Source: Oceanospirillaceae bacterium
GTDB lineage: Bacteria; Pseudomonadota; Gammaproteobacteria; Pseudomonadales; Balneatricaceae
Assembly: GCA_013215505.1 (NCBI GenBank)
Contig: JABSQZ010000018.1
Span: 1 to 43,583, forward strand
Direction of reading: 5' to 3'
DNA length: 43,583 nucleotides
The translations under genes and the position numbers were made by a program. Position 1 is the first letter of the stretch; each line of letters opens with the position of its first letter. The notes under the pieces were generated by a model. The model was not told the DNA's origin and did not search any database. It saw only the letters and a program-made list of their open reading frames with translations. Shown here piece by piece: positions 11,958 through 29,591 of this stretch.

Positions 11958-13100
11958 TCAATCAAGCAATAGGATTGAGTGTAATTCAGAGATACGTGCA
12001 GGTAATTGAATAGACCGTGAAAAACCAAATTCTTTATTCATAATGGTAATTCGTGTATCTATTGAGACTGGTGTACGCCCAGTCTCAAGGCGTGAGAAGT
12101 TGCGATTTTTACTCTCCCCGAGAAAATAATAATTTTCATCAGAAGAAAATCCTCTTACAAATCCTGGTAATTTTGCCAATTCTTGAAAATTAGAGCCTAG
12201 CAAGGCACCCTTAAATGAATCTAAAACTTTAATTCCACCATCATCATAAACAACACTGTGCGGCATAGTTAAATTGTTAACTATAATAGTCATCTCACCA
12301 TCTTTTAGATTAACTTCAATTATCCCCCCATCAAAAACATTTCGCTTCCAATTACCTGTAACGGAGAACATTGAAACATACGCAAAATCTCCTATAATTT
12401 CAATATCATTACAGTGATGCTGAGGACTGCCAAACAAGTCTAACTTATTACTAAACCTGTATTCAAAAATCTCATTGCCACTGTCATCTACTGCTAAAAT
12501 ACAATCAGCAAGGCTAGAAACTAACACCCAGCCATTGTTATATCTTCTAATACCATGAGGGCGAAGACCTTTTCTAATTGGAATTGTTTTAGTAATGTTA
12601 AATGATTCATCTAGTATAATTATCCCCTCTCCCTGGCACGTAAAAGCATAACCACCAGCAACTGTGATTAATCCATGGGTATTACCTTCATATATTTTGC
12701 TGATGGTTGGATAATCACCCTCTTCAACAACGCTGTAAATCCCCCCGCCAGAAAAAGAGTCAGCTGTTGATGGAAGTCCACTACTGATTAAAAAGCTAAA
12801 TTTTCTTTCTTCTAAGTCCATTATCCTGGTTTTTTCCGCTAACTGTTTAGCGACATCGGCTTCTCGCCCCCAATCAAATCCATAACTTGTTAACTGCTTC
12901 TTCACCTCTCCCACCGATGTCGTACAGACGACAACCTGGTAGATATTACTTCGGCTTTTCAATACGTCAGGTGATTTAATTGTTATGCCATGAAATTTTG
13001 AACCTATCAGATCCAAATTATTATCAACAATAAAATCAGGTTTTAAATGTAGATTTTTTTCAGCGACATTACCACTACCGAACAACACTAATTTCTTCAT
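11958..13100 (-). CDS. Two-part protein: Rossmann-like N-terminus plus DUF4915-like beta-propeller
   Basis: The function is unknown. Residues 1 to about 100 begin KKLVLFGSGNVAEKN and contain FIVDNNLDLIGSKFHGI, the pattern of the small nucleotide-binding domain seen at the front of PglD-like sugar acetyltransferases and related sugar enzymes. Residues about 105-375 look like a beta-propeller of the DUF4915/TIGR03032 type, with GLRPHGIRRYNNGW, SPQHHCNDIEI, MPHSVVYDDGGIKVLDS and the near-C-terminal LPGFVRGF followed by YYFLGESKNR. There is no signal peptide, so it is probably cytoplasmic. It is the last gene of the sugar operon, 60 bases after the degenerate amidotransferase, with AAGG before the ATG. 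A role in making, sensing or attaching the modified nonulosonate is inferred from position only. The domain assignment is by eye. Confidence 0.7.
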   Translation of the reverse strand: MKKLVLFGSGNVAEKNLHLKPDFIVDNNLDLIGSKFHGITIKSPDVLKSRSNIYQVVVCTTSVGEVKKQLTSYGFDWGREADVAKQLAEKTRIMDLEERKFSFLISSGLPSTADSFSGGGIYSVVEEGDYPTISKIYEGNTHGLITVAGGYAFTCQGEGIIILDESFNITKTIPIRKGLRPHGIRRYNNGWVLVSSLADCILAVDDSGNEIFEYRFSNKLDLFGSPQHHCNDIEIIGDFAYVSMFSVTGNWKRNVFDGGIIEVNLKDGEMTIIVNNLTMPHSVVYDDGGIKVLDSFKGALLGSNFQELAKLPGFVRGFSSDENYYFLGESKNRNFSRLETGRTPVSIDTRITIMNKEFGFSRSIQLPARISELHSILLLD

Positions 13101-13160: not shown

Positions 13161-14342
13161 TTAAGTACTAACCCCTTTCCCAAAACAAACAAAATCATCC
13201 ACTGCATCATGACCAACTTCTATCATTGGCACCAAGTATTCTGGTAGATCGAGAGGTTGCGCCGTGGTATCAGATTCTGTTATTAAATTCTTTACGTCAC
13301 CAAGCCGGTGACTTTTAAACCATTGGTAGCCACTTTCCGAGACATCTAACCAGTCAAAAAAGCCTCGGATATTTATTTTTGATTGATGGTAATGCGCTTC
13401 TATTGCAAAAGCTTGTTTACGAGTAACTCGACCATGACGAATTTCTCGCACTAAATGGTCTCGTATTTTACGGTAACCTACTCGTTTATATTTAAGCAAA
13501 TCATGAAACTGATAATAGACCGAGCTACCTGCCCTTTCGTACGTATCAAAACTTGAAGCATTACCTTGCGGTTTAAAACCAAATTCCAGAGTACTTTTAT
13601 TTTGCTTCAATGGATCCCAGTGACAATAGTTGCTTAAGTACAGCCCCCTGACTCCTCTTTTAGCAAGTCGCTTAACATCTGGATATTGGTAATAGTTCAG
13701 CGCTCGAGTATCAACCTGAGCACCGTTTCCAATCAAACTATCAATGTTTATTCCAAACAGGTCATGCTCTTTTCGGCTCCATTTACTCATCTCAGCTTTA
13801 TCAAGGTGAGAAAACTTACCTACTTGTTCAATGGCTTGATTTTGTCCCCAGATAATTAAAGGGATATTACGCTCATATGCAATATGTACTGGAAAAGAGC
13901 TATGCAATGAGAGAAACGGTAACATGATGTGATCGTGCTTTCTCAATGATGTGCGGATTAACTCCTTATAAATTCTGATATCAGGGTTGTAAACCAATGA
14001 ATCAACATCAAAGTGGGTTATTAGATTATGAAGATTATGCCAACCTATATCGTTCTTAAAATAGTCATTTACGGCCACTACTAATGGAGATAACTGTAAC
14101 TCTAGTACCTTATTGAGCACATAATAGTCTTCAGCATCACCGACAACTGGAACAACACAATCATAACCGCGCTTCCTAACTTTTGAAAAACTGATATCTT
14201 CAATAAGCTCTGCTTTCTTTGCCTGCCAGTTAATGTCATATTTTTCATTATGAGTGTCGCACCCTGAGCAACCTTGCGGATAGACTACTAAGCCAAATGG
14301 ATGAGACTGGTCGTATAAACATTGATTACAACTATTCTCCAT
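13161..14342 (-). CDS. Amidotransferase-like (WbpG/PseA family) paralogue with degenerate PP-loop
   Basis: This 393-residue protein resembles the N-acetyl sugar amidotransferase encoded at 15664-16803, but its active site is altered. The N-terminus keeps a four-Cys zinc-type knuckle (C5, C8, C25, C28). The next landmark, YDCVVPV, lines up with YDCIVGV of the intact enzyme. There the ATP-binding PP-loop SGGKDS is replaced by VGDAED (about residues 67-72), so ATP activation of an amide is unlikely. Later it keeps NIPLIIWGQNQAIEQVG, matching NTIFWGENPALQVG of the intact copy, so fold and probably sugar binding are retained. It overlaps the HisF-like gene by 11 bases and is in the same operon. 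It may be a regulatory or scaffold subunit of the amidotransferase complex, or may have a new activity. Confidence 0.72.
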   Translation of the reverse strand: MENSCNQCLYDQSHPFGLVVYPQGCSGCDTHNEKYDINWQAKKAELIEDISFSKVRKRGYDCVVPVVGDAEDYYVLNKVLELQLSPLVVAVNDYFKNDIGWHNLHNLITHFDVDSLVYNPDIRIYKELIRTSLRKHDHIMLPFLSLHSSFPVHIAYERNIPLIIWGQNQAIEQVGKFSHLDKAEMSKWSRKEHDLFGINIDSLIGNGAQVDTRALNYYQYPDVKRLAKRGVRGLYLSNYCHWDPLKQNKSTLEFGFKPQGNASSFDTYERAGSSVYYQFHDLLKYKRVGYRKIRDHLVREIRHGRVTRKQAFAIEAHYHQSKINIRGFFDWLDVSESGYQWFKSHRLGDVKNLITESDTTAQPLDLPEYLVPMIEVGHDAVDDFVCFGKGVST

Positions 14343-15042
14343 GTTTATAACCTTTTAGTGAAAACTCTTTGTGTAAGACTTTATTATCGATCAGCACCGA
14401 TGCACAGCCAAGAGCCTTGGCAGTTTGGATGTTTGTATAGCCTATTCCTCCGGAGATAATGATTTTCTGTTCTGCTATAGGTAAATCATCAAGCAGGAAA
14501 AAGTTAAATTTATCTTGTTCTCCCTCGTTTTCGATATCGTAAAACACCACTTCATTTGCAAAATCATTAATCAATTGAAAATTAACATTAGCTATTGGTA
14601 TGTATTCTTCAGTTTCACAACAAAAAATAACTGATGTGTCCTGTTTTTTGCCAATAGGTAGCAAACACTGGATAGCCTGACGCCCAAATAACGCGCAAGC
14701 ACTTTCCAATAAATCATAATTTTGGGTCAAGAATGCAGATGAAAAAATCAGCCTTTCCACTGGGACATCAGCTAACATTTTCAAAGTTTCAACACTCCTA
14801 AGTCCCCCACCAAAACATATTGGTGTCATCGTATTAAGTGTTCTAAGCACTTCTAGATCACGCTTGAACGCTATTAAGCTATCCTGCTTTCTCTTCGGCC
14901 GGATGATAGCTATTTCATCACACTGATACTCTTCAAGCATATCAACAACATGTTGCAAAACCCCTAAGGGCCGAAATTTCACCCAATTATATGATTGATA
15001 ACATAACCCATCTAGCAACAAAACGGTTGCTCCAACTCTCAT
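14332..15042 (-). CDS. Divergent HisF-like amidotransferase subunit
   Basis: This 236-residue (beta/alpha)8-barrel protein resembles the cyclase subunit of imidazole glycerol phosphate synthase. D11 (LLLDGL) aligns with the first catalytic Asp of HisF. The phosphate-binding loops CFGGGLRSVET (about 76-86) and IISGGIGYTNIQ near the C-terminus are present. Where HisF has the second catalytic Asp (Asp130), this protein reads CLLPIGKK, so histidine synthesis looks impossible. It lies between the HisH-like gene and the degenerate amidotransferase. In Pseudomonas O-antigen loci wbpG-hisH2-hisF2 convert a sugar N-acetyl group to an acetamidino group, with HisF as the ammonia conduit. The same job is inferred here. 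AAAGGT precedes the ATG. Confidence 0.82.
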   Translation of the reverse strand: MRVGATVLLLDGLCYQSYNWVKFRPLGVLQHVVDMLEEYQCDEIAIIRPKRKQDSLIAFKRDLEVLRTLNTMTPICFGGGLRSVETLKMLADVPVERLIFSSAFLTQNYDLLESACALFGRQAIQCLLPIGKKQDTSVIFCCETEEYIPIANVNFQLINDFANEVVFYDIENEGEQDKFNFFLLDDLPIAEQKIIISGGIGYTNIQTAKALGCASVLIDNKVLHKEFSLKGYKHGE

Positions 15043-15053
15043 TTTTGTTACCT

Positions 15054-15674
15054 TTAAAGAATCATTGATATTAATTCAAGCCCAGAAAGTTGACTTTTTT
15101 CTGGGTGAAACTGGATACCGATGATGTTGTCTTTGACAACCATCGAGCTGTATTGATTATATTCAATAGAAATAGGTTTACTAAAAGCCAGTGGGTCATT
15201 ATTGATAAAACCATATTCATGATTAAAAAAAACCCTACCGGCAATTTTTTGCTTTCGGGTTAGTTTTCTCTCTGAATTGAACTTTTGATTAGTTAGATCA
15301 CTGCGATAAAATTCAAATTTTTCCCAACTATTATGAGAAATATTAGAGTTCAATTTCTCAACCTTGCCTTTGAGTATACCTAAGCCTTTTGTCCCGCCAT
15401 CTTCTTGCGAGAACTCGGCCATAATTTGAAAACCAAGACAGATGCCCAATATGCGCCGACCACTATCTACGTGATCTATAACTGCCTGGTCAAAACCGCT
15501 TTCTATCATACGTTGCATGTATGAACCCGCTGAACCTACTCCTGGTAAAACTAAAAAATTTGATTTTATTTCTGTGGGACTCTTCACGATATTAGTAGGA
15601 ACGTGCAGACGTTCCAGCCAATTTTGAATAGAACGAATATTACCGCTGCCTATATCTACAATATCAACCGACAT
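15054..15674 (-). CDS. HisH-like glutamine amidotransferase subunit
   Basis: This class I glutaminase releases ammonia from glutamine for the partner synthase. Starting from the ATG at 15674 it has 206 residues, the usual HisH length. The nucleophile C79 is in GICLGFQ, and H190 and E192 are in QFHPEKSQ, so the Cys-His-Glu triad is complete. The oxyanion loop PGVGSAGSYM is present. I chose 15674 because AGGTG lies 6-7 bases upstream and MSVDIVDIGSGNIRS matches the family start; the frame continues to 15728 but only inside the upstream gene. It overlaps the end of the PP-loop amidotransferase by 11 bases. It belongs to sugar amidation, not histidine synthesis, as no other his genes are present. 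Confidence 0.9.
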   Translation of the reverse strand: MSVDIVDIGSGNIRSIQNWLERLHVPTNIVKSPTEIKSNFLVLPGVGSAGSYMQRMIESGFDQAVIDHVDSGRRILGICLGFQIMAEFSQEDGGTKGLGILKGKVEKLNSNISHNSWEKFEFYRSDLTNQKFNSERKLTRKQKIAGRVFFNHEYGFINNDPLAFSKPISIEYNQYSSMVVKDNIIGIQFHPEKSQLSGLELISMIL

Positions 15675-16803
15675 AATCAACACCTGTAACAAACTTACGA
15701 CCTGGACGTTCAGCAATTTTAATATCAAAGATATCTTTATTTATCCACTTATTCGCAATCCGCCAAAACTCCTCCACAGAAATACCAACATAACGACAGA
15801 AATTTTTTATGATACTGTCATCGCATACACCGTCATATTTATTGACTATTTCTATCGCTTCATCACGGCTTAGTTTATTAATCCTGATTAACTCGTTGAC
15901 ACTATCAGTTGCCCTGCCGAAACCAAATTTGTAATACTTCAACATCATGTTAATGTTGGTAAATTCTTCATCTAACATCGAAGCATTGGATATATCACCG
16001 GTAATATTCTCCTCACCGGGCCGTAAACTTAATCCTTGTAATGCTGCATAGGTGGAATTATCTTGATTGCTCCAGTCATCCCAGGCAGGGCCCAAATAGA
16101 ATATGTTTATTTTTTGTTTTTCAAATTCAATTTCGTCTGGGTACAAATAATGTTCTAACAAATAGTCATGACTGCCTACTTGATTAAGCCAATCAGACCC
16201 ACCTTCAGTGAGCGTATTTAATTTTCTAAGGCTATTACCATCAAACTCATCAATACCTTCTACGGCAGAGTCTCCAACTTGCAGCGCTGGGTTTTCACCC
16301 CAGAAAATGGTATTTACCCCCAACTCAATTGCTAATCTTGGTACGGTAGAAAACAGCGACATTTCCGTTGATTTGCAGACATTTCCAAATTTAACAAAAG
16401 ACTCTAGCGCTAATTTAGCCGCTGTCTGCGGGGCAGGTGTCGCCATTATTAGGTCGAAGCCCATTTCGATTAAGTTGGAAAGGTTCTGAGCACCTATTTC
16501 AGACATTTGTTTGGGTGGGTAAGCGCAACAGATAAGTAAAGGGCGTAGCCCTAGTCGATCACGAACCCAGTGTGCCTGGCGTGTGCTATCTTTTCCGCCG
16601 CTGACCCCTACTATGCAGTCATAAGCGCCTTTATTTCGCTGTTTCTGTCTGCTCTTGACTATCTTTTCTTGTAGCAGATGTAATTTAACTGCTGGTTTGT
16701 CAAAAACAATTTTGTCAGAATACATACAGGCAATACACACCCCGTTTTCAAAGTGCGCATTCGGGCGCAAGTCGGTAGAAAGGCATTGCTTGCAATATCT
16801 CAT
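15664..16803 (-). CDS. N-acetyl sugar amidotransferase (WbpG/PseA family)
   Basis: This 379-residue ATP-dependent enzyme is predicted to convert an N-acyl group on the nonulosonate or its precursor to an amidine, using ammonia from the HisH/HisF-like pair. The N-terminal CxxC pairs (C4, C7 and C23, C26) suggest a zinc knuckle. The PP-loop SGGKDS is intact at 68-73 after YDCIVGV. NTIFWGENPALQVGDS is a conserved family segment. In Campylobacter PseA makes acetamidino-pseudaminic acid, and in Pseudomonas WbpG acts on a diNAcMan precursor; linkage to pseI favours the former type of substrate. Its ATG overlaps the pseI stop by 4 bases (ATGA). The exact substrate, and whether it acts before or after CMP activation, cannot be told from sequence. 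Confidence 0.85.
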   Translation of the reverse strand: MRYCKQCLSTDLRPNAHFENGVCIACMYSDKIVFDKPAVKLHLLQEKIVKSRQKQRNKGAYDCIVGVSGGKDSTRQAHWVRDRLGLRPLLICCAYPPKQMSEIGAQNLSNLIEMGFDLIMATPAPQTAAKLALESFVKFGNVCKSTEMSLFSTVPRLAIELGVNTIFWGENPALQVGDSAVEGIDEFDGNSLRKLNTLTEGGSDWLNQVGSHDYLLEHYLYPDEIEFEKQKINIFYLGPAWDDWSNQDNSTYAALQGLSLRPGEENITGDISNASMLDEEFTNINMMLKYYKFGFGRATDSVNELIRINKLSRDEAIEIVNKYDGVCDDSIIKNFCRYVGISVEEFWRIANKWINKDIFDIKIAERPGRKFVTGVDYVG

Positions 16804-17876
16804 ATTGTGCTTTTCATTTGGTTAATCTGGTCAAATGAAAGTGCCGTACCTTTGGCAATCGCCACTTTTGCTCTTTTACCAATTACCAAATCATAATATT
16901 TTGGAGCCAGGCCATAGCCAGGCCTTATACTGCGAACATTATGCTCTGTAAACATTTCACCTGCAGCCACGTCATTGACTACATATAGAGAACGACGAAA
17001 AATCAAGTTACCCTTTTCGCTTTCTTTACGTCGGTAATTTATCTGTCCTAATGCCCCCCATGCCGTTTTGCTATCACGGCATAAATTTTGTAACTCATTT
17101 TTTTCAAGAGAAAAACTATCATCAGGGCCACCACCATTCCGATCTAAAGTAACGTGTTTTTCTATCAGGCAAGCACCTAAGGCAATCGAAGTAATGGCCG
17201 TTGTATTGTCGATGGTATGGTCAGACAATCCTGTTAATACTCTAAAACGTTCCGCGATATCAGGAAGGGTTCTGAGGTTGTAATCTGTGGATGCCGCAGG
17301 GTAAGCACTTACACAATGCAATACTACCAGTTGTTTGCAGCCAGCCTCCCTTGCAGTGGAAACTGCTTCTTCAATTTCATCTTCGTTTGCCATCCCGGTA
17401 GAAATAATGAGCGGTTTACCGGTCTTCGCTGCGTAGCGAATTAAAGCTAAGTCTACAACTTCAAAAGAAGCTATCTTATAAGCAGGTGCCCCCAAGTCTT
17501 CGAGCATATCTACAGCAGTAAAATCAAATGGGGAACTAAAAATTGTAATTCCCAACTCTTGAGCCCGTGCAAAAAGAGGCTTGTGCCAATCCCACGGCAT
17601 ATGGGCTTGAGCATATAGATCATACAGAGTTCGCCCATGCCATAAGCCACCTTCGATTTTAAACTCGGGCTTATCAGAATCTATCGTCAATGTATCCGGA
17701 GTATAAGTTTGCAACTTTATCGCATCAGCACCGCAGTCTTTGGCCATTTGCAAAATTTGAAAAGCGCGATCAATGTCACCATTATGATTCGCTGAAAGTT
17801 CGGCAATAATGTATGGGGGATACCCTGGACCAATCCTTCTACCCGCTATTTCTATATAATCGCTGTCACTGCTCAT
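16800..17876 (-). CDS. pseI: Pseudaminic acid synthase PseI (NeuB family)
   Basis: PseI condenses the 2,4-di-N-acyl-6-deoxy-altrose made by PseG with phosphoenolpyruvate to form the nine-carbon nonulosonate. The 358-residue protein starts with IAGRRIGPGYPPYIIAELSA and has the catalytic N-terminal barrel with ELSANHNG at 26-33, DAIKLQTYTPDT, YKIASFEVVDL, GLSDHTID and IEKHVTLDR. The C-terminal SAF (antifreeze-like) domain runs from about residue 295 and contains RSIRPGYGLAPKYYD. The GYPPYIIAELS opening and KIEGGLWHGRTLYDLY are typical of PseI rather than of sialic or legionaminic acid synthases. The start overlaps the formyltransferase-like gene by 11 bases. Confidence 0.92.
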   Translation of the reverse strand: MSSDSDYIEIAGRRIGPGYPPYIIAELSANHNGDIDRAFQILQMAKDCGADAIKLQTYTPDTLTIDSDKPEFKIEGGLWHGRTLYDLYAQAHMPWDWHKPLFARAQELGITIFSSPFDFTAVDMLEDLGAPAYKIASFEVVDLALIRYAAKTGKPLIISTGMANEDEIEEAVSTAREAGCKQLVVLHCVSAYPAASTDYNLRTLPDIAERFRVLTGLSDHTIDNTTAITSIALGACLIEKHVTLDRNGGGPDDSFSLEKNELQNLCRDSKTAWGALGQINYRRKESEKGNLIFRRSLYVVNDVAAGEMFTEHNVRSIRPGYGLAPKYYDLVIGKRAKVAIAKGTALSFDQINQMKSTI

Positions 17877-18540
17877 TGTCTGTAAATCCTACTTTTTCAA
17901 GCTTTAACGTATATCGTTGACCATTGTATTCAAAAAAGGCAGGGAATCGATCTGGGTCACACACTCTTAATAAATTAAACTGGTTTTCAAGAGAGTCACT
18001 AATATCCATCCGGCTGTCTTCAGGTGTACGTTTTTTATAATAGTGCGTACTTTTGCTGTCATCTTGAACTTGAGGAATAATTTCATCCCACTGCGTAATT
18101 GATTTTTCAATCAGCTCAATTTCAGCTGCAAATAATTTTTGGTTGATCTCATCATATAAATCATTACGACTGATCTCTATCCTTTTTTGACACCATATTC
18201 TACCAGTGTCAACGCTATCTTCGACCTCCAGTAAAGTCAAAGTGATAAAGTTAGCACCATTAATGACTTCCCAAATATGTGGACTCCAGCCTCGTCCATT
18301 TGGCAGGTCGCTGGCATGTAATAATAGTGCATGTGAAAATCTCGCTGTAACTGAAGAGCTTATTAACTCACTGCATGACACCAAAAATAAAAAATCACCT
18401 TGTTCTCTTAAAAGCTTAGCGCTTTCTACCAGCTGTATATCGTAGCGCTGATGCTGCTGTTTGATCCAGTCAACTAACACCGGGTATACAGGATGGGAGA
18501 AATCGCTACAGATAAAAGATATTTTTATCATTTTAAGCAT
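17866..18540 (-). CDS. Formyltransferase-like enzyme in the PseH position (PseJ-like)
   Basis: This 224-residue protein resembles the catalytic part of methionyl-tRNA and sugar-nucleotide N-formyltransferases. LLLHASDLPNGRGWSP contains the catalytic His (H75) and the SLLP-like loop; VDTGRIW contains the catalytic Asp (D111). The Asn that stands two residues before the His in methionyl-tRNA formyltransferase and ArnA is Leu here. No C-terminal tRNA-binding domain is present. It lies between pseG and pseI, and no PseH-type GNAT acetyltransferase is in the locus, so it probably N-formylates the 4-amino group of the PseC product. That would give a 7-N-formyl pseudaminic acid. The ATG overlaps the pseG stop; a second in-frame ATG at 18531 is possible. 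Confidence 0.78.
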   Translation of the reverse strand: MLKMIKISFICSDFSHPVYPVLVDWIKQQHQRYDIQLVESAKLLREQGDFLFLVSCSELISSSVTARFSHALLLHASDLPNGRGWSPHIWEVINGANFITLTLLEVEDSVDTGRIWCQKRIEISRNDLYDEINQKLFAAEIELIEKSITQWDEIIPQVQDDSKSTHYYKKRTPEDSRMDISDSLENQFNLLRVCDPDRFPAFFEYNGQRYTLKLEKVGFTDNEQ

Positions 18541-19645
18541 CCAAAATCAGGTCCAGTATTCGTTTACATCCCATTCCATCACTGATTTTCTGGCATGTAT
18601 CGGCTAACTGTAGATAGATATCTTGATTGTGATGATAAAGAATCAACAGCTTTTCTATTTGCTCAACGCAGACATCCCCTATACAGCCTAAGTTTACAAC
18701 CGCACCCACTTTATCTAAATTCACAGCGATTTTTTGCTGATTTTCCGCCAAGACTAAGTTTAACGTAGGTAACCCCAACGTACAGCGCTCCCAGGAAGTC
18801 GAACCTGCGGCGCCAATACAGATATCATGTTCAGTCATAAGTTTAGCCATAGCTTGGCTATTAACGATTATTTTCACTTGGCATTTCATCAGCTCACTTT
18901 GTTGTCTCAGCTGCTTTAAATGTGGATTCGCGCCGCCGACAATTACTGTAATGAATAAATTTTTGACGATTGAGGTCTGCGAAAGCAGCCCTAAAACCTG
19001 ACCCGTCACGTTATCGGCATCTCCCCCCCCTAAGGTGATTAAGACCCGTAATGCTTTATCTGCTAATGGCGCTTTACGCTTAAAGCTGTCACTAAGATTT
19101 TTAAATTCCGTACGCAGCAACGCGAATTCAGGACCTGTTTTTATATCACATGCTGTATTAACCAGATCTGCATAATTGTCGCGGCTCTTACCAAACGTTT
19201 GATCAATCAGCCAGCTACAATAGTGCGGGCGATCACTTAAATCATCAATGGCTAAAATGGAAGCGAAACCAGCTAGTTTTTTTTCCCACGGCGCTCCCAG
19301 TGCATAATGATCAACCATTATAAAAAGTGGCTTACTTGCCCGCTCTTTAATCTGTTGCTCGATAACAGTCAGGCTATTATCTGCGTCCTGGATCTCTGTT
19401 CCTGTCAACCAATGTGAATGAGAGTAGCTAGGTTTGGAAGTAACACAATGGCATTCTGGCAGCTTAATTGCGGTAACCGAAAGTTCCTGTAGTTTAGGGA
19501 TCAGTGCGTCAGGGATGGCCCTAGAGAGTAACACGGCTTGTATATCACAGGACTGTGCCCACTCGGCCATGGCTAGGCATCTCATTACATGTCCCAAACC
19601 TATTTTTTCACTTGCGTCAGCTCTTATTACAAACCATTTTTTCAT
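18533..19645 (-). CDS. pseG: UDP-sugar hydrolase PseG
   Basis: PseG removes UDP from the 2,4-di-N-acylated 6-deoxy-L-altrose nucleotide before PseI acts. The 370-residue GT-B-like protein opens with FVIRADASEKIGLGHVMRC, in which H19 corresponds to the family's catalytic His. IMVDHYALGAPWEKKL and LAIDDLSDRPHYCSWLIDQ follow. The C-terminal nucleotide-binding half has LITLGGGDADN and the donor-binding segment CIGAAGSTSWERCTLGLPTLN. It lies 8 bases after pseF and overlaps the next gene by 8 bases. The length is slightly above the Campylobacter enzyme (274) but normal for the PseG of many gammaproteobacteria, in which the central region is extended. Confidence 0.92.
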   Translation of the reverse strand: MKKWFVIRADASEKIGLGHVMRCLAMAEWAQSCDIQAVLLSRAIPDALIPKLQELSVTAIKLPECHCVTSKPSYSHSHWLTGTEIQDADNSLTVIEQQIKERASKPLFIMVDHYALGAPWEKKLAGFASILAIDDLSDRPHYCSWLIDQTFGKSRDNYADLVNTACDIKTGPEFALLRTEFKNLSDSFKRKAPLADKALRVLITLGGGDADNVTGQVLGLLSQTSIVKNLFITVIVGGANPHLKQLRQQSELMKCQVKIIVNSQAMAKLMTEHDICIGAAGSTSWERCTLGLPTLNLVLAENQQKIAVNLDKVGAVVNLGCIGDVCVEQIEKLLILYHHNQDIYLQLADTCQKISDGMGCKRILDLILDA

Positions 19646-19653
19646 TAAAAGAA

Positions 19654-20343
19654 CTACTTATTCTGTTGCTGAATCAGTTTAAAGATAAGCTCGGCACGCT
19701 CCCAGTCTGCTGGGGTATCGATGTCCTGAACTCGCGAAGCTGGTATAAGGATAGGTTTTGATTGATCAGAAAAGAATGCTTTGCCAGCACTAAAAGTTGC
19801 ACTGTTTCCCCAATAGAATTGCCCGGCATCGTGATATGCGCACTCCAGGTCTTGAGAGCGTGTTTTAAAAAACTCTGGTTGAAACATTTCAACACGACCT
19901 TCCCCAGATAAACGAAAAGCTCTTTGGATCGGGAATGAAAATTCAGTGGCGCTAAAGACATAATCAAGTTTATCACTTTTCAGTAATTCCAGTCCTGCAA
20001 GCAGAGCATCGGCAGTAACAAATGGGGCTGTTGCGTAGAGACAGCAAAGGATATCATTGTCTTTAAGCTGTAACTCTGTTGTCGCATGTTGGATTACTTC
20101 TACAGTAGTCGCGAAGTCACCTGAGACTGCTGCTGGGCGTAAAAACGGAATTTCCGCTCCATATTTTTTTGCGATTTCTGCGATTTCCTGGTCATCCGTT
20201 GAAACAATAATGCGATCAAAGCAGCCACTTGTAATAGCTGCCTCAATCGAGTAAGCGATCATTGGTTTCCCGTGGAATACTTTAATGTTTTTGCGAGGAA
20301 TTCGTTTGCTGCCGCCACGAGCTGGAATTATCGCAATATTCAA
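19654..20343 (-). CDS. pseF: Pseudaminic acid cytidylyltransferase PseF
   Basis: PseF activates the nonulosonate as the CMP-sugar, the donor for the Maf transferase. The 229-residue protein has the CTP-binding signature IPARGGSKRIPRKNIK at the N-terminus, GKPMIAYSIEAA, FDRIIVSTDDQEIAEIAKKYGAE and CCLYATAPFV, all standard for the CMP-NeuA-like family. CAYHDAGQFYWG near residue 170 is typical of PseF. The ATG overlaps the pseC stop. It is in a tight operon with pseC upstream and pseG 8 bases downstream. Confidence 0.93.
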   Translation of the reverse strand: MNIAIIPARGGSKRIPRKNIKVFHGKPMIAYSIEAAITSGCFDRIIVSTDDQEIAEIAKKYGAEIPFLRPAAVSGDFATTVEVIQHATTELQLKDNDILCCLYATAPFVTADALLAGLELLKSDKLDYVFSATEFSFPIQRAFRLSGEGRVEMFQPEFFKTRSQDLECAYHDAGQFYWGNSATFSAGKAFFSDQSKPILIPASRVQDIDTPADWERAELIFKLIQQQNK

Positions 20344-21500
20344 ATAACGACCTCCTGTAATACTTTAATCACTAGGTTTTGATCTTCAAAGCTCATATGG
20401 TGGTACAACGGAATACTAATTGCTTGCTCATAGTAAGCTTCGGCTTGTGGGTAGGCGCCTTTTATAAATCCTAACTTTTGATAGTAAGGCTGAGTATGCA
20501 CTGGAATATAATGTAAGTTCACTCCAATACCATTGCTGCGAAGAGCATCAAACACTTCAGTATGGGACGCTTCAATTTCATCAAGCTTTAATTTAATGAC
20601 GTACAAGTGGCGGCCAGAGTAAGAGTCCGGTATCTGCTTGGGAAGTACCAGAGGTAAATTTTGCAATTGTTCATCATATCTATTTGCCAGCTGGTTGCGC
20701 CTGGCAACGAAATCTTCAATTCGACTCATCTGGCTAACGCCCAGTGCCGCCTGCATTTCAGTCATTCTATAGTTATAACCCAGTTCAATTTGTTGATAAT
20801 ACCATGCGCCTTCTCCGGCCTGGTTCATCAACTCTGGATCTCGGGTAACGCCATGACTACGCAACAGATCCATTTTTGAGGCTAATGATGCATTGTTAGT
20901 TGTAGCAGCCCCACCTTCAGCGGTGGTGACGATTTTTACCGGATGAAAACTAAACACCGTGATATCGCTGTACTTACAGCTGCCAACTGCGACCTCTTTA
21001 TACTTACCACCGATTGCGTGAGATGCATCCTCAATAATAGAAAATCCATAGGATTTACTAAGATCATAGATTTTTTGCATGTCACAGGATTGGCCACACA
21101 AATGAACGGGGATTACGACTTTAGGTAAAGGTAGATTGTGCGCTGTTGCTTCCAGTAATTTCTGTTCTAGCTTATCTGAACATAAGTTGTAGCTAACTTC
21201 ATCAATATCAACAAAATCTATGTCAGCACCACAATATAAAGCACAATTAGCAGAGGCAACAAAGGTAATTGGCGTAGTCCAAACGACATCACCTTTCCCA
21301 ACTCCAAGTGCTAAACAGGCAATATGCAGGGCTGAAGTGGCAGAGTTTACCGCCACAGCAAATTCGGCATTAACAAGCTGTTTAATAGCCCGCTCAAATA
21401 ATGGTACTTGCGGCCCTTGTGTTAGGAAATCTGATTTCAATACACTGACTACAGCATCAATATCTTGTTGGCTTATCTCTTGTTTACCATAGGGGATCAT
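20340..21500 (-). CDS. pseC: UDP-4-amino-4,6-dideoxy-L-AltNAc aminotransferase PseC
   Basis: PseC is a PLP-dependent DegT/DnrJ/EryC1-type enzyme that aminates the 4-keto product of PseB. In its 386 residues, IPYGKQEISQQDIDAVV opens the protein. VNSATSALHIACLALGVG is the cofactor phosphate-binding segment, and IIEDASHAIGGKYK contains the conserved Asp. FSFHPVKIVTTAEGGAA contains the PLP lysine K189. The segment GYNYRMTEMQAALG is also characteristic. The product is the acceptor for the formyl- or acetyltransferase step. PseB ends 9 bases upstream and pseF overlaps at the end. Confidence 0.94.
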   Translation of the reverse strand: MIPYGKQEISQQDIDAVVSVLKSDFLTQGPQVPLFERAIKQLVNAEFAVAVNSATSALHIACLALGVGKGDVVWTTPITFVASANCALYCGADIDFVDIDEVSYNLCSDKLEQKLLEATAHNLPLPKVVIPVHLCGQSCDMQKIYDLSKSYGFSIIEDASHAIGGKYKEVAVGSCKYSDITVFSFHPVKIVTTAEGGAATTNNASLASKMDLLRSHGVTRDPELMNQAGEGAWYYQQIELGYNYRMTEMQAALGVSQMSRIEDFVARRNQLANRYDEQLQNLPLVLPKQIPDSYSGRHLYVIKLKLDEIEASHTEVFDALRSNGIGVNLHYIPVHTQPYYQKLGFIKGAYPQAEAYYEQAISIPLYHHMSFEDQNLVIKVLQEVVI

Positions 21501-21509
21501 AATGCTTAC

Positions 21510-22523
21510 TTACACTTGGAAGTTAGGATCAACGTGCTGTTTGACTAATTTTCGCAGTGATTCTACTGTTTCCCATTCAGTGTTTGTACCGGAATTGTAT
21601 TTAAAACCAAAAGCTAAAGGTATTGCATTATGGTGCTTTAGAAAATCGTCCATAGTGTAGCTGGTCGATACGGAGGGGAGTATGGCGTAATATTTTCCCA
21701 AGTCTATACTATTGAGAGAGTCTGTCTCAGTAATCATTTCTTCATGGAGTTTTTCACCGGGGCGGATACCGACAATGCGGGTAGTACATTGCGGGGCAAC
21801 AGCCATTGCGACATCCATAATTTTATAAGAGGGGATTTTAGGTACAAAAATTTCTCCGCCTAAATGATGACCTATGGCGAACATCACAAGATTAACGCCA
21901 TCTTGAAGAGAAATATTAAAGCGAGTCATTGCTTCATGAGTGATAGGTAACACCCCTTCTATTCTTTTTTCTAAAAAGAATGGAATAACAGAACCACGCG
22001 ATCCCATAACGTTGCCATAGCGGACAATACTAAAACGGATTTTTCTTGAACCTCGAATATTATTGGCAGCGGCAAACAGCTTATCTGAAGTTAACTTAGT
22101 CGCACCGTATAAATTAATAGGTGCACAGGCCTTATCAGTCGACAACGCAACGACATCTTTAACGTTACAAGCCAGCGCTGCGTGTATAACGTTTTCAGCA
22201 CCATCAACATTGGTTCTTATACATTCTGTAGGGTTGTACTCAGCTGTATCCACTTGCTTAATCGCCGCGGCGTGAATAATTACATCCACCCCTTCACAAG
22301 CTTGAATTAATCGAAGCCGGTCACGTACATCACCAATATAGAATCGCAACTGAGGGTAATCATAGCTTGGGTACTGCTGCTTAATAACCGATTGCTTTAG
22401 TTCGTCTCGAGAATAGATAATGATTTTTTTAACATCGGGATACCGATTAAGAATAGTGGCAATAAATTTTTGACCGAAAGAGCCCGTTCCACCGGTAATT
22501 AGCACTGTTTTATTATTTAACAT
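21510..22523 (-). CDS. pseB: UDP-GlcNAc 4,6-dehydratase (inverting) PseB
   Basis: PseB carries out the first step of pseudaminic acid synthesis: dehydration and C5 inversion of UDP-GlcNAc. The 337-residue short-chain dehydrogenase has the nucleotide-binding motif ITGGTGSFGQKF at 9-20, the catalytic STDKACAP (T129, D130, K131), and the YxxxK pair Y139/K143. GNVMGSRGSVIPFF is typical of the FlaA1/PseB group. It lies 221 bases after the maf gene, the largest gap in the sugar operon, with GGATGGG before the ATG. A promoter may lie in that gap, but I see no clear -35/-10 pair. Confidence 0.95.
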   Translation of the reverse strand: MLNNKTVLITGGTGSFGQKFIATILNRYPDVKKIIIYSRDELKQSVIKQQYPSYDYPQLRFYIGDVRDRLRLIQACEGVDVIIHAAAIKQVDTAEYNPTECIRTNVDGAENVIHAALACNVKDVVALSTDKACAPINLYGATKLTSDKLFAAANNIRGSRKIRFSIVRYGNVMGSRGSVIPFFLEKRIEGVLPITHEAMTRFNISLQDGVNLVMFAIGHHLGGEIFVPKIPSYKIMDVAMAVAPQCTTRIVGIRPGEKLHEEMITETDSLNSIDLGKYYAILPSVSTSYTMDDFLKHHNAIPLAFGFKYNSGTNTEWETVESLRKLVKQHVDPNFQV

Positions 22524-22744: not shown

Positions 22745-24745
22745 TTAGCGCTGTTCATATGCGGGTAATAAGTCAACAATCTGTACCCTTGTAGCGGTAA
22801 AAAACACATCTATTTCTGTCTCAACAACAGCGTAAAACTCAGCAAAATCTAGGTCATTAAATACTTTTTTTGCACAGGTAATATTTACTAAGATACCGCG
22901 AATACTTCCACTCAGTATTCTGTAAACACTACTATTTTCTTGTTCACACTGTCGTAATATTCCCTCAATCGCATCAAACTCGTTGGCTATTTCTAGGTAA
23001 TTCATCCCCGATATATACAAATGGGTTCGAATCTTATTGCATGTTAAATCAAAGCACTCTCTGATGCTATCTAGCTCAACTGCTATGCTGTGTTTATCAA
23101 AGGTTTGATTTTCAAAGCTCCTTTCCAGTAAGCGCTGAATAATACTGGCTTTGTTTTCTATCTTTTCAAAGTTTGCAACATCATCACTTGGTTTAGGCTC
23201 AGCGCCTCTTATATAGGCTCCATCACTCAAGTTGTAACAATTAGGATTAAAACAAGTAAGTATTGATTCGATGGCGATTCTTGAATTATTAAACAGAGGA
23301 TTAGTTAATACTGAATCACGAAAATTTCCTCTGGCACTGTGGATTGCCCTTTTTCGGAATACAGGCGCCTTCTCTTCATTCTCATTGAAATATATGCTCT
23401 GTTTCGAGTGGTGTTTTGCAGTATCTATCATACCGCAATCGACACCCGCCAAATAGATTTCCTTGAAACCCAACATTATCGCCAGTCCCAGCCCAAAATT
23501 TGAAACCAAGGGATTACATTCATACATTTCAAAAAATTTATTATCACTCACTTGTTTCAGTAAATCCCCGCCGATATCTCTCGGTTTCATTACCATATGC
23601 GTGTTGTTAAACAACTCATATACTTCGGGACAACAAGTATTGAGGCCGACAAAGAAAAGCTTGTCCCGCTGCTCTTGACTAGTGTGCTCAACCAACATAT
23701 CCCTAACAAGGGTGATACGCTCTTGCTCTACGTGGATATCCGGTACTATACCTTTATTTACTAGTGTGCTGAGTGCTGTACCACAAGAGATCACGATAAA
23801 TTGCTCAAGACGCTCTTTGAGGAACCCCTCTAGTTCATCCAGTGACGGGCCGTTACCAATCACAAGTACCGGCTTGTCACAAAAATCACTAGCCATAGTT
23901 AAACTGTTACGGGAAATCGGCATACCTTTTTGAACATTTTCCAATGTGTGCAAAAGCCCTAAACGTTCATCCTCAAAATACCCAAGACCGCCGAGCACAT
24001 TCATAAAATAGAATTTTAGGTTATTTGACAGCTGCCTCAGCTCATCGTTTTCGTAATGGAAATATGTGTCTATTTTAGAGCATCGATGATAGCCCTTGTT
24101 TTTTAGCAAACTGTTAATTACACGAATATTTTCATCATTATCAGTAACGTTATAGACTGTAATACTGTAGCCATCACGATTAAAGTAACCTAGTATCTGT
24201 TCCCAGTCGACAACATATAACGAGTTAAACAGAGCGTCTTCATCTGATTCAAAAATGGTTAAATTCTTTACATCTAACGTGTTTAACACATACTGCAGTT
24301 GTAGACAGAGCCCCGCACCGTACATAAAAAGTTGCTCTGCAAGGGTTTCGTCTGCTTGCACTATCGGCGGTAAAAGCTCTTCATATTTTTTGTTAGTTTT
24401 AGCTAAATATTCAGTGTATGGATAATTTGGATGGCCGCGGTCAATAAGCGTTTCAGTCACAACAAAGTGCGATCGTTTTTTCAAAAATGCTGCAGCTTGC
24501 TTTTCAGCATAGACAACGGGATCTTCAGGATATACAGCTTGTCCAGTATTGATATTGACCAGGTTAATGTAGCCTTGTTCCGACAAACGCAGTGTTAAGC
24601 GCTTGGGCTGGTAATCGATAAATTTGGTGAAATACGGATGATTCACACGTTTAAAAAAGCGGATATTATGATCAAATACCCTCTGTAATTCTGCAGACAT
24701 TGAGACTGCAACCCTGCGGTATTCATCTGAGTTCTTATTTAGCAC
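22745..24745 (-). CDS. maf: Motility accessory factor Maf (DUF115-type flagellin glycosyltransferase)
   Basis: Maf proteins attach nonulosonic acids such as pseudaminic acid to Ser/Thr of flagellin in the cytoplasm before export. The 666-residue protein has the family's MAF_flag10 core with VLVIGNGPSLDELE at about 294-306, QFIVISCGTALSTLVNKGIVPDI, and EIYLAGVDCGM. An N-terminal domain of about 250 residues and a helical C-terminal part flank it. The start is a GTG at 24745 with AAAGGC upstream, only 18 bases after fliS. The gene directly follows the flagellin-flaG-fliD-fliS block and directly precedes pseB, which links the sugar pathway to the flagellin. The residues that fix sugar specificity cannot be read. 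Confidence 0.92.
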   Translation of the reverse strand: MLNKNSDEYRRVAVSMSAELQRVFDHNIRFFKRVNHPYFTKFIDYQPKRLTLRLSEQGYINLVNINTGQAVYPEDPVVYAEKQAAAFLKKRSHFVVTETLIDRGHPNYPYTEYLAKTNKKYEELLPPIVQADETLAEQLFMYGAGLCLQLQYVLNTLDVKNLTIFESDEDALFNSLYVVDWEQILGYFNRDGYSITVYNVTDNDENIRVINSLLKNKGYHRCSKIDTYFHYENDELRQLSNNLKFYFMNVLGGLGYFEDERLGLLHTLENVQKGMPISRNSLTMASDFCDKPVLVIGNGPSLDELEGFLKERLEQFIVISCGTALSTLVNKGIVPDIHVEQERITLVRDMLVEHTSQEQRDKLFFVGLNTCCPEVYELFNNTHMVMKPRDIGGDLLKQVSDNKFFEMYECNPLVSNFGLGLAIMLGFKEIYLAGVDCGMIDTAKHHSKQSIYFNENEEKAPVFRKRAIHSARGNFRDSVLTNPLFNNSRIAIESILTCFNPNCYNLSDGAYIRGAEPKPSDDVANFEKIENKASIIQRLLERSFENQTFDKHSIAVELDSIRECFDLTCNKIRTHLYISGMNYLEIANEFDAIEGILRQCEQENSSVYRILSGSIRGILVNITCAKKVFNDLDFAEFYAVVETEIDVFFTATRVQIVDLLPAYEQR

Positions 24746-27794: not shown

Positions 27795-29591
27795 TTACTG
27801 TAGTAGTGACAACACTTGTTGTGGACGGGCATTTGCCTGTGCCAACATCGCATTACCTGCCTGCTGCAATACTTGCGCCCTGCTCAAGTTTGCCGATTCT
27901 GCGGCGAAGTCGGCATCCATAATCGCCGACCTGGCAGAGGAGGCATTCTCTGAAATATTAGACAAGTTACGAGTAGTGTAGTCAAGCCTGTTAGAAACCG
28001 CACCTAACTCGCCACGTGATTCACTGACTTGCGAAATCGCATCATCGAGAATGCTAATTGCACGCTGTGCACCGGCAGCGGTCGAGATATCTATTGAATC
28101 TACATTGGCACCGGCACTTTCATTGTCGTTTACTTCCTGAAGATCCAGAATGGCTTTATTCGCAGTTACATCCGTCGCATCACCTGCGTACTGGAAAGAG
28201 AGCTCCTGGCCATCCACAGCTTCTAATGTTATCCGACTGGTCGTAGAGTTGGCACTGGCGATAACCCCTGTCTCATCACTTTGCAGGTTCATCCAGGCTG
28301 CTACATCATTAAACTCACCCGCTGTAGCTGTAGTTCCTTTATCATAATCAATAGTGTTATCGTATGCATTTAATTCAACACCGTTGATAACCACTTTTCC
28401 ATGATCTATATCAGCCAGCGTACCTCCCGATCCACCTTCAACTCTACCAGCGGTCAGACGTTGGTCAATACCGATCTGCTCTGAAAAAGCAGGCGCTGAA
28501 GTACCGTAATCAATACTAATACCGTTAGTTGAAGTACCTTCGGCAAGCGTTAGACGAGCAGCATTAACCGCGCCACTAGTAATATTATCACCAATGGTCT
28601 CATCAATATCAGCACCAGTTGAGTGGGTCAACGCGATAGAAGCTATGCCTTCACCGGAAATCATGAAATTGCCGTTAGAATCTAGCTCTGCAGTTACTTC
28701 ACCGTTGGATTTCTCATTGATTTTATCAACCAAGTCCTGCAATCCAGTTGTGTTTTCAATTTGTAACTGCGTGGCGGTACCATCCGCTGCTATTATATCA
28801 ACAGTCAATCTGTCAGTACCAGATAAGATACCATCGCCTTTAGAGTCCGCTTGCACTTCAACAAGTGATCCCGCGATCACCGAACCTCCCAGCTGGGTGT
28901 TTATGTCAGATAGCGCGTCTTCTAAATTGTAGTTTGCAGTAGCTAGAGAACCAACATCCAACTTAATACCATTAATTTTGGTACCGGTAGTGGCTGCAGC
29001 CGATGTATCGGTAATTGTTTGTAAGTTGACTAATAGTGTACCTACACCTACTTCACCGATTATATCTGCGCCCACTCCTGTGCCCAGAGATTTAGTACTG
29101 ACTTCGGTGATTTCCATGGCAATCGTTTGATTGGCATTTTCGCCTACTTGGAGCTTGATCTCACCCTGCGATCCGTCCAGGATATTCAGACCATTAAAGC
29201 TAGTAGACTCACCAATACGATTAATTTCTTCTTGTAACTGCTTAACTTCAGCGTTTAGTGTGTCACGGTTACCTGTATCGTAAGTACCGTTAGCAGACTG
29301 AATAGATAGCTCACGCATCCGCTGTAAGATGTTAGTTACTTCTTCCAAACCACCTTCTGCAGTTTGAATAAGCGCGGCACCGTCGTTCGCGTTACGCACA
29401 GCTTGGTTCAAGCCTTGTATTTGCGATGTCATACGGTTAGCGATTGCCAGGCCAGCTGCATCATCCTTAGCGGAGTTAATACGTAAACCGCTAGATAAAC
29501 GTTCAGTCGCAGTATTTTGCTCTTGTAGCGAATTGCTTAAATGACGCTGTGCATTTAGCGACTGGATGTTGGAATTGATTACCATTGCCAT
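27795..29591 (-). CDS. fliC: Flagellin FliC
   Basis: This is the filament subunit, 598 residues. The N-terminal D0/D1 (about 1-165) has INSNIQSLNAQRHLSNS, RLSSGLRINSAKDDAAGLAIA and the TLR5-recognised type segment QRMRELSIQSAN at 90-101. The C-terminal D1/D0 has LDDAISQVSESRGELGAVSNRL and the terminal QARPQQVLSLLQ-like end. The central 330 or so residues form large surface domains rich in Ser, Thr and Asp and offer many possible O-glycosylation sites. There is only one flagellin gene in the window. TGAGGAGA precedes the ATG, and two sigma-28 promoters lie upstream. The fliS, maf and pse genes follow on the same strand. Confidence 0.95.
   Translation of the reverse strand: MAMVINSNIQSLNAQRHLSNSLQEQNTATERLSSGLRINSAKDDAAGLAIANRMTSQIQGLNQAVRNANDGAALIQTAEGGLEEVTNILQRMRELSIQSANGTYDTGNRDTLNAEVKQLQEEINRIGESTSFNGLNILDGSQGEIKLQVGENANQTIAMEITEVSTKSLGTGVGADIIGEVGVGTLLVNLQTITDTSAAATTGTKINGIKLDVGSLATANYNLEDALSDINTQLGGSVIAGSLVEVQADSKGDGILSGTDRLTVDIIAADGTATQLQIENTTGLQDLVDKINEKSNGEVTAELDSNGNFMISGEGIASIALTHSTGADIDETIGDNITSGAVNAARLTLAEGTSTNGISIDYGTSAPAFSEQIGIDQRLTAGRVEGGSGGTLADIDHGKVVINGVELNAYDNTIDYDKGTTATAGEFNDVAAWMNLQSDETGVIASANSTTSRITLEAVDGQELSFQYAGDATDVTANKAILDLQEVNDNESAGANVDSIDISTAAGAQRAISILDDAISQVSESRGELGAVSNRLDYTTRNLSNISENASSARSAIMDADFAAESANLSRAQVLQQAGNAMLAQANARPQQVLSLLQ

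Follow-up and report, generated by a model that had tools for sequence, protein, structure and literature searches.

Amidine groups alter the charge of sugars on the bacterial surface, and how they are installed is poorly understood, as the authors of the Legionella amidotransferase structure 8wex also say in the available text of their paper (PMC10607449). Here, we describe an operon in a 43,583-nucleotide stretch of an Oceanospirillaceae bacterium genome (GCA_013215505.1, contig JABSQZ010000018.1, positions 1 to 43,583; the window) that combines pseudaminic acid (Pse) genes, a sugar N-formyltransferase gene (FT) at the place of the acetyltransferase gene PseH, and an amidation module (PseA-HisH-HisF-WbuX2) with two amidotransferases, one of which, WbuX2, is degenerate. 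In Campylobacter, hisH and hisF stand beside pseA. Campylobacter PseA is described as an amidotransferase acting on flagellar Pse (PMC13317340), the role predicted for the window PseA; unlike in Campylobacter, FT replaces PseH in the window, which also has a degenerate second amidotransferase. Sequence searches found a single solved relative of PseA and WbuX2, the Legionella N-acetyl sugar amidotransferase (LpNASAT; 8wex), a dimer with a zinc tetracysteine, which differs from the window pair in being a single enzyme with an intact SGGKDS motif and no pseudoenzyme partner mentioned in the available text (PMC10607449). The flagellin islands of Geobacillus hold Pse genes without PseH in types II–IV and formyltransferase genes in types I, III, and V (one strain), and formyltransferases are also noted in an Alteromonas flagellin island (PMC5109656). 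The presence of a formyltransferase instead of PseH has therefore been noted in substance for the Geobacillus islands, but the available text on the Geobacillus and Alteromonas islands, unlike the window, gives no mention of HisH, HisF, or an amidotransferase. N-formyl is listed among the common C5/C7 substituents (PMC6388019). Tannerella forsythia Pse5Am7Gra resembles the sugar predicted here in its 5-acetamidine and non-acetyl C7 group (PMC6388019), but that group is glyceroyl instead of the formyl predicted for the window, and the gene proposed for the amidine is of the AnsB type (PMC6120980), unlike that of the window. The marine bacterium Pseudoalteromonas distincta has Pse5Ac7Fo, with the 7-formamido group predicted here, in a polysaccharide and not on flagellin, with no amidine named in the available text (PMC3210612). 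A 7-N-formyl group and an amidine on Pse are each known; what is new, as a variation on known kinds, is their predicted combination and the pair of an intact and a degenerate amidotransferase.

The operon is a tight minus-strand run of 11 genes (PseB-PseC-PseF-PseG-FT-PseI-PseA-HisH-HisF-WbuX2-DUF4915-like gene; Table 1), located between flagellin-side genes and flhA; the names FliS, FlaG, and flhA in this neighborhood were assigned by reading the open reading frames of the window. From PseB to WbuX2, neighboring genes overlap or are at most 11 bases apart, and the DUF4915-like gene starts 60 bases past WbuX2. Using NCBIfam equivalog and Pfam cut-offs as the basis of gene calls, we found that the Pse pathway set named in an initial annotation of this DNA (PseB, C, F, G, and I) is present, each member scoring over its equivalog cut-off. 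The range of that annotation, 15054–22523, stops at HisH, and its inventory was incomplete: HisF, WbuX2, and the DUF4915-like gene extend the operon to 11958, and WbuX2, the more unusual element, had been missed. The gene set that it listed is otherwise confirmed, the trio of amidotransferase, HisH, and HisF included: PseA and HisH are over their cut-offs, and HisF lies just outside the range and is a weak WbuZ/HisF match.

On balance, we favor the reading that this operon makes CMP-5-acetamidino-7-formamido-pseudaminic acid (CMP-Pse5Am7Fo) for the modification of flagellin by Maf, with WbuX2 as a pseudoenzyme twin paired with PseA. PseB and PseC would produce UDP-4-amino-4,6-dideoxy-L-AltNAc, FT would formylate its N4 (later the C7 nitrogen) in place of acetylation by PseH, and PseG, PseI, and PseF would complete the CMP-sugar. 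Ammonia would be freed from glutamine by HisH and channeled by HisF, and PseA would convert the 5-N-acetyl amide to an acetamidine at the expense of ATP. WbuX2 would pair with PseA, probably as a heterodimer, docking HisH-HisF or shaping the pocket, and Maf would transfer Pse5Am7Fo to flagellin. The case draws on what the sequence shows, namely which genes are present and in what order, the lost motifs, the paired copies, and the occurrence of the module beside a PseH-like domain as well; the formyl at C7, the amidine at C5, the heterodimer, and the transfer to flagellin are what we infer. The gene set predicts a flagellar sugar, Pse5Am7Fo, and this name did not occur in the available text of the open literature searched.

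The formyltransferase-like gene reported at the place of PseH in the initial annotation was borne out by its Pfam domain, its fold, and its position between PseG and PseI. Its AlphaFold2 model (predicted local distance difference test score 91.4) has a formyltransferase fold; a fold search placed an ArnA domain first by E-value, and the match nearest in size was 1zgh (template modeling [TM] score 0.80/0.79). A profile search of genome contigs recovered 316 FT relatives. In the best 80 of these 316 loci, PseG lay within 3 kbp of FT in 76, PseI in 75, and both in 74, and a weak PseH-like GNAT was near FT in four, with the proviso that several contigs are short and absent neighbors may be cut contig ends. 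PseJ formylates the product of PseC. It belongs to the same formyltransferase superfamily as FT and is named for the Pse pathway in the Protein Data Bank (PDB 6ci2, 6ci4, 6ci5, 6edk), but it is distant from FT (26 bits with the single sequence, 32 bits with the FT profile) and is not among the 50 fold matches listed. A housekeeping role of FT as Met-tRNA formyltransferase was ruled out by the operon position and by its fmt score (61.7 bits, cut-off 201.5). A 7-N-formyl pseudaminate, as proposed in the initial annotation, is well supported as a prediction by the position of the FT gene and by the chemical precedent of Pse5Ac7Fo (PMC3210612), with C7 as the presumed site.

Two observations weigh against this assignment. 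The catalytic triad of the formyltransferase superfamily is Asn-His-Asp. Residues H75 and D111 of FT are invariant in 13 aligned rows, although the usual Asn is absent from the FT of Pse loci: the window protein has Leu two residues before the invariant His, at what we take to be the superfamily Asn position, and no aligned relative has Asn there either. In addition, one locus (L117, 7052–10651) is an exception to the replacement of PseH by FT, because it has FT plus a frame resembling a PseG-GNAT fusion, which scores 43 bits against the GNAT domain of the L194 fusion. As a separate observation, PDB 1zgh, filed as a methionyl-tRNA formyltransferase, resembles the second FT type of Pse loci in carrying an HxxDLPxGRG motif and lacking the Asn; it may be a sugar formyltransferase. 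An LmbE-like deacetylase gene, named by its motif, follows PseI in three other loci (L022:10301-13349, L019:11554-14599, and L074:9768-15259), the first two of which also hold a second formyltransferase; this gene suggests removal of the 5-N-acetyl group and re-acylation, for example to a di-N-formyl pseudaminate.

The initial annotation had named a PseH elsewhere in the genome as a point to check, and none scored over the cut-off (TIGR03585, 93.1 bits) in the whole genome of the bacterium (5.73 Mb, 98.23% complete). Ten matches lay below the threshold, the best being a stand-alone GNAT with 45.9 bits, and no sugar gene was recognized within 3.5 kbp around it. The cut-off is imperfect: PseH-like domains fused to PseG elsewhere score only 38–41 bits, so that it cannot by itself exclude a PseH. 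PseH over the cut-off was found in none of 12 FT-bearing genomes tested (of 80), with sub-threshold PseH-like matches in four. Against our reading, full-length PseH-like matches reached 72 bits in an Aliivibrio genome (G855) and 60.7 bits in a Halomonas genome (G853); these exceed the scores of the fused domains, and a PseH beside FT is therefore possible in both. The same scores, together with the ten sub-threshold GNATs of the bacterium itself, favor a simpler product, which we nevertheless regard as unlikely: Pse5Ac7Fo or Pse5Am7Ac, with the amidation genes or FT serving another molecule, or an unlinked GNAT giving a 7-N-acetyl group. What speaks against it is that all genes form one tight operon, that Halomonas sp. 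ALS9, Vibrio sp. HA2012, and Aliivibrio sp. EL58 (L092, L095, and L098) share the order FT-PseI-PseA-HisH-HisF-WbuX2, as does Shewanella sp. KT0246 (L089) apart from one inserted gene, and that no sugar gene was recognized in the 3.5 kbp around the best GNAT.

The question of which amide becomes the amidine can be approached from G976 and G931, two genomes that belong to the same genus as the Vibrio sp. HA2012 record. In both, the PseA-HisH-HisF-WbuX2 module follows PseI, PseG carries a fused PseH-like GNAT domain (38.2 and 41.1 bits, under the cut-off), and no FT was found in the 20 kbp read. The window PseA is 78% identical to the PseA of these two genomes and 73–78% identical to that of the four closest FT loci. 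Sites separating the two PseH-type from five FT-type loci number zero in PseA, WbuX2, and HisF and four in PseI, the substrate of which bears the acyl group; four is the second highest value among the 21 possible locus pairs. The simplest reading is that the module would act on the group common to the FT and PseH-like contexts, the 5-N-acetyl group, and from these gene contexts we favor amidation at this shared group, with a formamidino sugar less likely. That FT sets the substrate of PseA was considered as well, and the two PseH-type loci, with the same module and no FT in 20 kbp, count against it. Amidation at C5 agrees with known chemistry, given the 5-acetamidine of Tannerella Pse5Am7Gra (PMC6388019) and the N5 acetimidoyl groups described for Pse and legionaminic acid (PMC9912281). 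The alternatives left open in the initial annotation, C5 or C7, can be narrowed accordingly: an amidine is supported, and its formation on the formyl group is less likely in view of the module beside a PseH-like domain.

Several points weigh against the favored reading. The absence of separating sites in PseA is weak evidence, since 11 of the 21 possible pairs also give zero and two loci are compared with five, and the PseH-context loci number only two, read for FT over 20 kbp and not genome-wide. A PseA that acts at C7 and tolerates different acyl groups would produce this pattern as well. HisF misses the cut-offs of the WbuZ/HisF2 models (TIGR03572, 57.9 vs. 299.7 bits; NF038364, 50.8 vs. 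310 bits). The amidine of Campylobacter PseA is placed at C7, as CMP-Pse5Ac7Am, in one source (PMC13317340) and given as C5 in the table of another (PMC3958885), and both names are used within a third (PMC3068675); its regiochemistry is inconsistent across the available text of these papers.

The C7 assignment would suit an alternative that we judge distinctly unlikely, in which the amidine is formed on the 7-N-formyl group to give a 7-formamidino Pse, possibly with a 5-acetamidine as well if WbuX2 acts. Of the 13 PseA-clade loci compared, 11 hold both FT and the PseA module, but nine of them came from searches with FT or WbuX2, and apart from the window only one (G799) is independent. Set against this alternative are the module beside the PseH-like PseG fusion in two genomes without FT in 20 kbp, the zero separating PseA sites (weak), the description of the family of the Legionella enzyme as acting on N-acetyl groups (PMC10607449), and the missing PP-loop of WbuX2. 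A bolder version, in which the paired amidotransferase acts on N-formyl to give a 7-formamidino, perhaps bis-amidine, flagellar Pse and WbuX2 gave up ATP chemistry and so redirected PseA, appears very improbable to us. The terms formamidine, formimidoyl, and formamidino had no occurrence in the 20 papers listed of 220 matching one search of the open literature, and among the 20 listed of 348 in another, ‘formamidino’ stood only in an anthracycline paper. A Burkholderia flagellin glycan of 291 Da is described with acetyl, formic acid, and possibly acetamidino groups (PMC3958885), but its mass does not fit the predicted 301. Computed residue masses are 316.1271 for Pse5Ac7Ac, 302.1114 for Pse5Ac7Fo, and 301.1274 for both Pse5Am7Fo and Pse5Ac7-formamidino. 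The two last share one formula and mass alone cannot separate them, so the shifts of −14 and −1 Da put forward as diagnostic in the initial annotation would confirm the composition but not distinguish these isobaric isomers.

The second amidotransferase, WbuX2, departs from its relatives at the catalytic motifs. PseA is intact (PP-loop SGGKDS, WGEN, and the tetracysteine present), whereas the window WbuX2 has VGDAED for SGGKDS and WGQN for WGEN, so that the WGE glutamate is changed and just one of the six PP-loop residues remains. Its model still matches 8wex best (TM score 0.67/0.69), with the next matches at about 0.25–0.33 by query length. To describe what is kept, we used 33 conserved columns (those shared by 24 or more of the 26 intact family rows) and compared them with 15 degenerate rows; as rows were sorted into intact and degenerate by these motifs, motif loss is definitional and the finding is the retention of the other columns. 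Degenerate rows kept 21 of the 33 columns, including the four zinc cysteines (15 of 15 rows). Seven columns were broadly lost (three PP-loop positions, Q76, E170, R297, and F346), and five more mainly in the clade of the window, including the last two PP-loop positions, with some mild replacements (R297 to Lys, K292 to Arg). Phylogenetically, the 15 degenerate rows group together (100/98), with four intact WbuX2 rows outside this clade, and WbuX2 and PseA each divide into two main subclades that hold the same loci, six and seven in number.

The 99 distinct family frames examined comprise 69 intact alone, eight intact paired, 14 altered paired, and eight altered alone. Sixteen lack both the PP-loop signature and the WGE glutamate, and all of these are near an intact partner: 14 are within 5 kbp of another family frame, and the other two (L027 and L029) are 4 kbp copies of genes of the window and of L063, where the partners are present. 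Six other frames classed as altered alone (SGGKDG, SGGKDA, or SGGKNG) keep the glutamate and were not counted as degenerate; five of them lie in stretches of about 2.7–4 kbp, where a partner may be out of sight, and many ‘intact alone’ frames also lie in short stretches. L024, L134, and L202 keep the PP-loop but not the WGE glutamate and look like other families. Viral contigs contributed 27 relatives (22–29% identity), used for the motif count only. Based on these sequence patterns, WbuX2 is probably a pseudoenzyme subunit of a heteromeric amidotransferase with PseA, presumably a heterodimer; LpNASAT is reported to crystallize as a dimer, in agreement with size exclusion (PMC10607449). We met no description of an intact and degenerate amidotransferase pair in the available text of the literature, where the aimed search was limited to WbuX, WbuY, and WbuZ. 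Such a recurrent pair would offer a simple way to test how these enzymes bring ammonia and sugar together.

That WbuX2 is instead an active amidotransferase in its own right, serving another position or step, seems very unlikely. It does score over the family cut-off and keeps the zinc cysteines and 21 of 33 conserved columns, but the motif replacements in the window copy and the restriction of the loss of both motifs to copies near an intact partner count against it. Other findings temper the pseudoenzyme reading. The milder forms of WbuX2 (TGANDS, SGGRDA) could still bind ATP. Five of the 16 pairs (L157, L161, L183, L193, and L194) were fetched by the PseA search and are paired by construction, although the other eleven were not. 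Of the genomes with the four intact WbuX2 rows, three have a single TIGR03573 match and one, G1448 (L135), carries an intact, locally unpaired WbuX2 with a second family match about 21 kbp away. The available text on 8wex also calls its dimer interface not conserved in the family (PMC10607449). Elsewhere in the genome of the bacterium, a third, intact TIGR03573-family amidotransferase (L025, G000:C52:239600-240619) stands beside genes that look sugar-type by eye.

Table 1. Positions, strand, and profile matches of the operon genes and of the presumed transferase and acceptor in the window
Feature	Position	Strand	Match
PseB, UDP-GlcNAc 4,6-dehydratase (inverting)	21510..22523	-	TIGR03589 521.2 bits, cut-off 407.75, passed
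PseC, aminotransferase	20340..21500	-	TIGR03588 561 bits, cut-off 423.5, passed
PseF, CMP-Pse synthetase	19654..20343	-	TIGR03584 339.1 bits, cut-off 205.7, passed
PseG, UDP-sugar hydrolase, 370 amino acids	18533..19645	-	TIGR03590 273.5 bits, cut-off 153.55, passed; sole NCBIfam match
FT, sugar N-formyltransferase at the place of PseH	17866..18540	-	PF00551 50.4 bits, cut-off 26.1
PseI, pseudaminic acid synthase	16800..17876	-	TIGR03586 512.7 bits, cut-off 340.25, passed
PseA/WbuX-type N-acetyl sugar amidotransferase	15664..16803	-	TIGR03573 253.8 bits, cut-off 203.2, passed
HisH-type glutaminase	15054..15728	-	TIGR01855 137 bits, cut-off 105.4, passed
HisF/WbuZ-like protein, presumed ammonia channel	14332..15042	-	PF00977 50.8 bits, over cut-off
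WbuX2, degenerate amidotransferase paralogue, presumed non-catalytic PseA partner	13161..14342	-	TIGR03573 216.2 bits, cut-off 203.2, passed
DUF4915/TIGR03032-like protein, operon end	11958..13100	-	PF16261 57 bits, over cut-off
Maf flagellin glycosyltransferase, presumed CMP-sugar transferase	22745..24745	-	PF20157 and PF01973, over cut-off
Flagellin, presumed acceptor	27795..29591	-	best of many NCBIfam flagellin models 334.8 bits, all under their cut-offs

The NCBIfam scan reported no fused GNAT domain in the window PseG. For HisH, translation more probably starts at the ATG at 15674 than at the listed TTG, and Maf stays under the NCBIfam PseD cut-off (54.9 vs. 670 bits).

The PseA type of the window is rare and patchy. 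In the class sample of 369 genomes, two had matches above 300 bits (the window and G799), and 27 had weaker matches at E ≤ 1e-25. The type occurs in three of 216 genomes from the same genus as the Vibrio sp. HA2012 record and in 1/107, 1/191, and 2/75 genomes of three other sets, each of these four sets including its centre genome. The clade of the window PseA (14 rows, 100/97) excludes L037, which we take to be of the Campylobacter-like PseA type. Plasmid searches returned 10 and four records with 21–30% identity, in which a further module was neither sought nor seen. Gene arrangement varies among the carriers: in G799, retrieved by PseA alone, FT adjoins PseI and further genes precede PseA, and in L063 PseA lies well downstream of PseI. 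The DUF4915-like gene follows WbuX2 in only two of the four closest FT loci, those of Shewanella and Halomonas (L089 and L092).

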